In this document: positions 18,755-19,777 of the stretch, piece by piece | How positions within the stretch are numbered: position 1 is the stretch's first letter | Layout of the letters: each line of letters opens with the position of its first letter | From: Dromiciops gliroides | Lineage: Eukaryota > Chordata > Mammalia > Microbiotheria > Microbiotheriidae | Direction of reading: 5' to 3' | DNA length: 64,000 bases | Assembly: GCF_019393635.1 (NCBI RefSeq) | Contig: NC_057864.1 | Span: 447,596,822-447,660,821 of the forward strand | Notes under the pieces: model-generated | Seen by the model: the letters and a program-made list of their open reading frames with translations, nothing else | Databases searched by the model: none | What the model was told of the DNA's origin: nothing | Position numbers and translations under genes: made by a program

Positions 18755-18768
18755 AAAAGACCTAGAAG
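18755..18768 (+). repeat. Target-site duplication, 5' copy (FTH1 retrocopy)
   Basis: AAAAGACCTAGAAG, identical to 19764-19777. The preceding two bases are TT, giving the TT/AAAA context preferred by L1 endonuclease. Confidence 0.92.
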
Positions 18769-19048
18769 GGCCAGAAGTGCAGGGAAGGGGAGTCGCTGCG
18801 GTTTCCTGCTTCAACAGTGCTTGAACGGAACCCGCTGCTCGATTCCCGGCCGGAGCCGCCCTTAGCCACCTCTCCACCTTCACCTCCACTAACCAACACT
18901 TCTCCGTCCTACCGTTCGAGCAGCAGCCGTCCGCCTCAGCCGCCCCGGCCGTCGCCGCCGCCGCCGCCCCAGCCTCAGCCGCAGCCGCTGCGCAGCCGCC
19001 TCCTCCCTCCGCCTCCTCGTCTAAGCCGCCTCCACCATCTCTGCCGCC
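18769..19048 (+). other. FTH1: 5' UTR of the FTH1 retrocopy (GC-rich)
   Basis: About 280 nt copied from ferritin heavy chain mRNA, from close to the cap site to the start codon. It contains the IRE near its start, then a GCC/CCG-rich section (18930-19045) dense in CpG. The first bases after the target duplication are GGG, which might be the non-templated Gs often left at a cap or might be the native mRNA start. The GC content contrasts sharply with the AT-rich flanks. Confidence 0.85.
18800..18832 (+). promoter_or_regulatory. Iron-responsive element (IRE) in the retrocopy 5' UTR
   Basis: The hairpin has the canonical CAGTGC loop at 18815-18820. The upper stem is five base pairs (TTCAA with TTGAA). 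The ferritin-type CTGC bulge lies on its 5' side, and the lower stem GGTTTC pairs with GGAACC. In ferritin mRNAs, IRP1 and IRP2 bind this element when iron is low and block translation. Every feature needed for binding is present. Relative to the human element as I recall it, one upper-stem G-U wobble is replaced by A-U, which would strengthen rather than weaken the stem. Confidence 0.93.
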
Positions 19049-19600
19049 ATGACGACCTCGTCTCCCTCTCAGGTGCGACAGAACTACCACCAGGACTCTG
19101 AGGCCGCCATCAACCGGCAGATCAACCTGGAGATTTACGACTCCTACGTCTACCTGTCTATGTCTTACTACTTCGACCGAGATGACGTGGCCCTGAAGAA
19201 CTTTGCCAAGTATTTCCTGCACCAGTCCCACGAGGAGCGGGAGCACGCTGAGAAGCTGATGAAGCTGCAGAACCAACGCGGTGGCCGCATCTTCCTGCAG
19301 GACATCAAGAAACCAGACCGCGATGACTGGGAGAGCGGACTGAACGCAATGGAGTGTGCTCTGCACTTGGAAAAAAATGTCAATCAGTCTTTACTGGAAT
19401 TGCACAAGCTGGCAACTGACAAAAATGACCCCCATTTATGTGATTTCATCGAAACCCACTACCTGGACGAACAGGTAAAGTCCATCAAACAACTGGGTGA
19501 TCACGTAACCAACCTGCGCAAAATGGGGGCCCCCGATTCTGGCATGGCGGAATATCTTTTTGACAAGCACACCCTTGGAGACAGTGACAACGAGAGCTAA
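19049..19600 (+). CDS. FTH1: Ferritin heavy chain, intronless intact retrocopy
   Basis: The uninterrupted frame encodes 183 residues, the usual H-ferritin length. H subunits form the 24-mer cytosolic iron-storage shell and oxidise Fe(II) with O2. All ferroxidase ligands are visible (counting Met as 1): Glu28, Tyr35, Glu62, Glu63, His66, Glu108, Gln142. The three-fold channel residues Asp132 and Glu135, the nucleation glutamates 65 and 68, and the C-terminal LGDSDNES are also present. The start ATG follows GCCGCC and is the conserved MTT start. Introns are absent and the copy has a poly(A) tail and target duplications, so it is a processed retrocopy rather than the parental gene. Odd points: Asp at position 31, where human H-ferritin has Ala (from memory), and Arg at 91 instead of human Cys. 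Whether it is transcribed is unknown. It could be a recent, not yet decayed pseudogene or a functional retrogene, as in the independent mammalian cases FTMT and FTHL17. Confidence 0.93.
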
Positions 19601-19752
19601 GCCACACACCTGGCTTCCCCCACACCTGGGAACTGTGGGCGCCACTCCTCCTGTCTTTCAGTGCATGCATATTTTGGTTATCTGACCTTTTCATAATCTG
19701 TACCAAAAAACTACCACCATTTACATCCCAATAAAGTGACTTGGTACTGATG
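19601..19752 (+). other. FTH1: 3' UTR of the FTH1 retrocopy
   Basis: About 150 nt with the ferritin-type features tcagtgcatgcat (near 19659-19671), tctgtaccaaaa (19697-19708) and tggtac (19742-19747), which resemble the vertebrate FTH1 3' UTR. Confidence 0.85.
19730..19735 (+). promoter_or_regulatory. Polyadenylation signal AATAAA of the retrocopy
   Basis: Canonical hexamer 17 nt before the start of the A-tail at 19753, the normal distance. Confidence 0.9.
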
Positions 19753-19777
19753 AAAAAAAAAAAAAAAGACCTAGAAG
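19753..19777 (+). repeat. Poly(A) tail and 3' target-site duplication
   Basis: An A-run (19753-19767) merges into the second copy of AAAAGACCTAGAAG at 19764-19777, a perfect match to 18755-18768. Confidence 0.92.

Follow-up and report, generated by a model that had tools for sequence, protein, structure and literature searches.

The window, the whole stretch of 64,000 nucleotides analysed here from the marsupial Dromiciops gliroides, contains a full-length intronless copy of the ferritin heavy chain gene FTH1 at 18755-19777 (+), with an open frame of 183 codons. The copy is located on the 497-Mb contig C4, which is probably autosomal, and has an L1-type target (TT/AAAA, the slash marking the break), a 3' A-tail and target-site duplications. 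Its features are:

18753..18758 (+): integration site TT/AAAA, L1-endonuclease-like, break between 18754 and 18755; from the sequence
18755..18768 (+): 5' target-site duplication AAAAGACCTAGAAG; from the sequence, also recovered by script
18769..18769 (+): extra G between the target duplication and the parental +1; from the alignment, the parent having C
18770..19048 (+): copied FTH1 5' UTR; from the parent alignment, with CpG C>T changes at 18778 and 19042
18799..18834 (+): iron-responsive element IRE_I (Rfam RF00037, 56.4 bits, E 1.7e-10), the same as in the parent
19049..19600 (+): intact ferritin heavy chain CDS, 183 codons and stop, with L29I (19133 C>A) and A31D (19140 C>A)
19601..19752 (+): copied 3' UTR including AATAAA (19730-19735), with no difference from the parent
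19753..19763 (+): A-tail of 11 A, or 15 counting the four shared with the target duplication
19764..19777 (+): 3' target-site duplication AAAAGACCTAGAAG; from the sequence, also recovered by script

The two copies of the duplication match perfectly over 14 bp, four A's being indistinguishable from the A-tail. From the identity of the motif, we take TT/AAAA at 18753-18758 to be the usual L1 endonuclease target. The encoded protein matched Pfam Ferritin with 131.2 bits over residues 19-159, and the solved structures that it matched best carry the name ferritin heavy chain. Seven ferroxidase-site residues, which we take to be E27, Y34, E61, E62, H65, E107 and Q141 in mature numbering, can all be read off the sequence. 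An earlier note on this DNA had described the complete 183-codon frame, the full set of ferroxidase residues, the A-tail and the perfect 14-bp duplications; all of these were confirmed, and its coordinates proved exact. The intact IRE, the extra G at 18769 and the L1-like target add to that description.

The same note had called the copy free of introns and had proposed a search for a multi-exon FTH1 in the same assembly. This parent (L029, G000:C6:12907823-12909504) was traced from one Pfam row sized like FTH1 exon 2, followed into the surrounding DNA, and has four exons:

12907823-12908215, 12908726-12908872, 12908953-12909078, 12909188-12909504 (contig C6): parent exons of 393, 147, 126 and 317 bp

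The parental introns are of the GT-AG type, and all are exactly absent from the window copy, which joins the exons precisely as in the spliced mRNA. The parental protein equals the tammar wallaby FTH1 record P0026, minus the 13-residue isoform insert of that record. Alignment of the window copy with the spliced parental mRNA covered 983 of 983 bases and revealed four substitutions and no indels, a divergence of 0.41%, with 57 of the 59 parental CpGs retained. Both substitutions in the 5' UTR, C>T at 18778 and at 19042, fall in CpGs. The other two, C>A at 19133 (L29I) and at 19140 (A31D), alter the protein, and no synonymous change is present. At all four differing sites the parental base is the commonest among 24 other aligned copies, so the changes most likely arose in the window copy. 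Counting the window copy, A is found at 19133 in 2 of the 75 loci with a base there and at 19140 in 3 of 75. Asp31, put forward earlier as retrocopy-specific, does distinguish the copy from its parent (Ala31), but the same base change recurs in two old copies, L080 and L056.

The two amino acid changes sit one and three residues past Glu28, presumably the ferroxidase ligand E27 of the mature protein. Of 2702 homologues found, 120 were listed; all 120 have Leu at residue 29, while residue 31 is mostly Ala (111), otherwise Ser (5), Thr (3) or Pro (1), and never Asp. Hits at these conserved residues fit an unconstrained copy, and an L29I/A31D subunit would perhaps have lower stability than its parental counterpart. 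Both C>A changes, which are the sole non-CpG changes of the copy, alter the protein and lie 7 bp apart. This slightly unusual pattern perhaps reflects a single mutation spanning several bases or an error of reverse transcription.

A Pfam PF00210 search of the 3.3-Gb genome (17 contigs) was used to place the copy among other ferritin loci. With 150 of 211 candidates scored, the search gave 142 rows, corresponding to 136 loci (six with two rows), parent included; the 135 others were compared, with the flank piece L137 excluded. Each locus was compared by blastn with the parent mRNA and with the CDS of L025, and whichever summed score was higher decided between FTH1 and FTL-like; from its sequence we take L025 to be a ferritin light-chain copy. 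On this basis the genome holds at least 82 FTH1-derived and at least 53 FTL-like loci besides the parent. These counts are lower bounds because the census, being based on PF00210, misses loci that contain hardly any CDS or none. Among the 82 FTH1-derived loci the window copy shows the lowest divergence, followed by L003 (0.83%), L005 (1.46%), L007 (2.19%) and L002 (2.51%). The retrocopy nearest to it is L003, on a different contig, with 12 site differences and 2 gaps relative to the window copy. Two further copies on different contigs, L041 and L048, are almost identical in flank and target duplication; a later duplication probably gave rise to one of them, and the 82 loci are therefore not all independent insertions. 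Of the FTL-like loci, two were inspected, L023 and L025, and both have long open frames.

The frame intactness of FTH1 copies follows age. Our tally covers 75 FTH1 loci, each with 160 or more aligned codons, and counts a frame as intact if it had no stop and no frameshift. Intact frames were found in 2/2 loci below 1% divergence, 3/3 at 1-2.6% and 2/10 at 2.6-5.2%, and in 0/60 above 5.2% (0/8, 0/25 and 0/27 by band). Seven shorter FTH1 loci were excluded from the tally, one of which (L111, 69 codons) is undamaged. The genome's own copies gave a disabling rate of 0.091 per CDS substitution (177 frameshifts and 133 stops over 3397 substitutions). At this rate a neutral copy with two CDS substitutions has a chance of about 83% of remaining intact, and the intact frame of the window copy is thus expected.

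Counting synonymous and nonsynonymous changes against the parent, as the earlier note had suggested, gave 0 and 2. This N:S of 2:0 did not differ from that of ten damaged copies diverged by 3-6.5% (150:65; Fisher p = 1), although the test has little power. Since about 70% of the changes in damaged copies are nonsynonymous (150/215), a ratio of 2:0 should arise in about half of such cases. The window copy thus shows no sign of constraint, its two changes giving little power. The five young intact copies pooled gave N:S 21:16 (p = 0.15 versus damaged copies below 9%). An N:S test restricted to rare variants was dropped, as it lost recurrent CpG changes and one change of the window copy, the latter because L080 and L056 have the same base. 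In that dropped test L002 reached p = 0.008 (3 silent, 0 other), compared with 0.10-0.11 in the full test.

We then considered the 5' end. The first copied base lies 31 bp after the start of the parental TATAAA (counted by eye), so the window copy probably begins at the parental transcription start (+1) and would therefore be without the TATA promoter. Among the 68 copies reaching mRNA bases 1-4, 53 carry a G immediately ahead of mRNA base 1, the parental base there being C, although in some of these the G may equally be part of the target duplication. Reverse transcription that reaches the mRNA cap can add a G, and the extra G at 18769 was possibly copied from the cap; if so, it would place the parental start site to one base. 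Excerpts of PMC13174262 offered nothing on a G of such origin. The CpG observed/expected ratio is 0.84 in the copied 5' UTR and CDS and 0.08 in each 1-kb flank; by the latter value, there is no CpG island within the upstream 1 kb.

These results bear on the earlier proposal that the copy is either very young or maintained by selection. Youth is supported, with 4 differences in 983 bases, 57 of 59 CpGs kept and the lowest divergence among 82 loci. Selection finds no support here: both CDS changes are nonsynonymous and hit conserved residues, and some 83% of neutral copies with as few CDS changes would be as intact. We conclude that the window copy is, with high confidence, a very young FTH1 processed retrocopy, evolving neutrally, with a frame that mutation has so far spared. 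Its source was an FTH1 mRNA, spliced and polyadenylated, which was reverse transcribed, very probably by the L1 machinery in trans; the whole cDNA, with IRE, CDS and both UTRs and without a promoter, was inserted at TT/AAAA. Given an assumed mammalian substitution rate of ~2e-9 per site per year, the insertion would be about 2 million years old (roughly 0.5-5). In functional terms the copy is most likely a neutral young processed pseudogene, youth alone explaining its undamaged state; the CDS has just two changes, a number that leaves room for selection that is weak or of recent origin.

A functional FTH1 retrogene, having captured a promoter and with its protein kept by purifying selection, would also present an intact frame, ferroxidase residues and IRE, as seen here. 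We consider this very unlikely, since youth already accounts for the intactness, two nonsynonymous changes stand against no synonymous one, and the copy has lost a Leu found in 120/120 and gained an Asp found in 0/120 of the homologues listed (of 2702 found). Furthermore, the parental TATA promoter was not copied, and the upstream 1 kb has only 3 CpG and 40% GC. Should a fortuitous neighbouring promoter be active, an IRE-bearing mRNA for an L29I/A31D ferritin subunit would be made. That the copy is transcribed and its IRE-regulated ferritin H variant joins the shell and alters iron oxidation is highly improbable; if true, it would be a ferritin gene caught at its birth.

There is likewise very little to recommend the view that the copy is an artefact of assembly or arose from another retrocopy by segmental duplication at the DNA level. 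The common flank of L041 and L048 indicates that retrocopy duplication occurs in this genome, but the window copy has its own target duplication and a flank unlike those of the other copies compared, and it is separated from L003 by 12 sites and 2 gaps and from the parent by 4 sites. Positive selection for an altered ferritin, with two changes near a ferroxidase ligand, would agree with the N:S of 2:0 but is barely credible, as two changes carry almost no power and this ratio is expected about half the time. The very young neutral retrocopy, our preferred reading, matters little alone, being a fresh processed pseudogene. It is a mark of very recent mRNA retrocopying in a marsupial lineage, and the 82 FTH1-derived loci offer a natural decay series, with intact copies at one end, as a backdrop for picking real retrogenes.

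Two older copies in this series are still intact at ~5% divergence from the parent. L001 (G000:C1:303097228-303097650) has N:S 8:12 (p = 0.011) and L004 (G000:C3:174784190-174784612) has N:S 7:9 (p = 0.049), both lower than in the ten damaged copies diverged by 3-6.5%, the reference in each case; the S counts may be inflated by silent changes on the parent's own lineage. Pooled, with stops excluded, they gave 15:21 versus 141:65 (Fisher p = 0.004) in a post hoc test, intactness and N:S having been taken from one table with seven intact copies tested. The neutral chance of an intact frame with 20-23 CDS substitutions is 12-16%, so that 2/10 intact in this band is no excess. L001 and L004 are possible maintained ferritin retrogenes, and are better candidates than the window copy, yet not strong ones.

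As one more processed FTH1 retrocopy, the window copy is of a kind already well known. In humans, 24 FTH1 pseudogenes are annotated, some with an IRE, and 183-aa putative proteins are listed for FTH1P4 and FTH1P16, according to excerpts of PMC7760355. The human FTH1P series likewise consists of processed FTH1 mRNA copies, whereas the window copy is a separate insertion in another lineage, 0.41% from its parent. The at least 82 FTH1-derived loci found here compare with 24 human pseudogenes (PMC7760355), the counting methods being different. FTMT resembles the window copy in being intronless and bearing the marks of an FTH1 processed copy; the same excerpts describe it as having an N-terminal targeting extension and as free of IRE control (PMC7760355), whereas the window copy has kept the IRE and has no mitochondrial targeting extension, its CDS starting at the parental Met. 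FTHL17 is, like the window copy, an FTH1-like member of the ferritin family. It is described there as X-linked, with two altered ferroxidase-centre residues and no ferroxidase activity (PMC7760355); in the window copy, by contrast, the ferroxidase residues are preserved, and its contig C4 is a probable autosome. As a recent insertion of a processed transcript it also resembles gene retrocopy insertion polymorphisms, which are recent germline insertions of processed transcripts, as summarized in excerpts of PMC3663115. Our literature search found no paper uniting ferritin heavy chain, retrocopies and marsupials.

Elsewhere in the window, nine other ORFs, taken from 26 stop-to-stop stretches listed, were searched against Pfam and gave no match above the cut-off and one weak match below it. 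Open stretches at 7239-7679 (-) and 387-740 (-), neither with a Pfam match, resemble decayed L1 ORF2 remains by eye. Long low-complexity open frames at 25900-26550 and 28110-28570 are microsatellite-like. Among the homologues, P0002, labelled Yersinia pestis, is a ferritin 96% identical to the mammalian protein, from a record whose longest contig has 903 bases; it very likely represents host DNA contamination of the public record.
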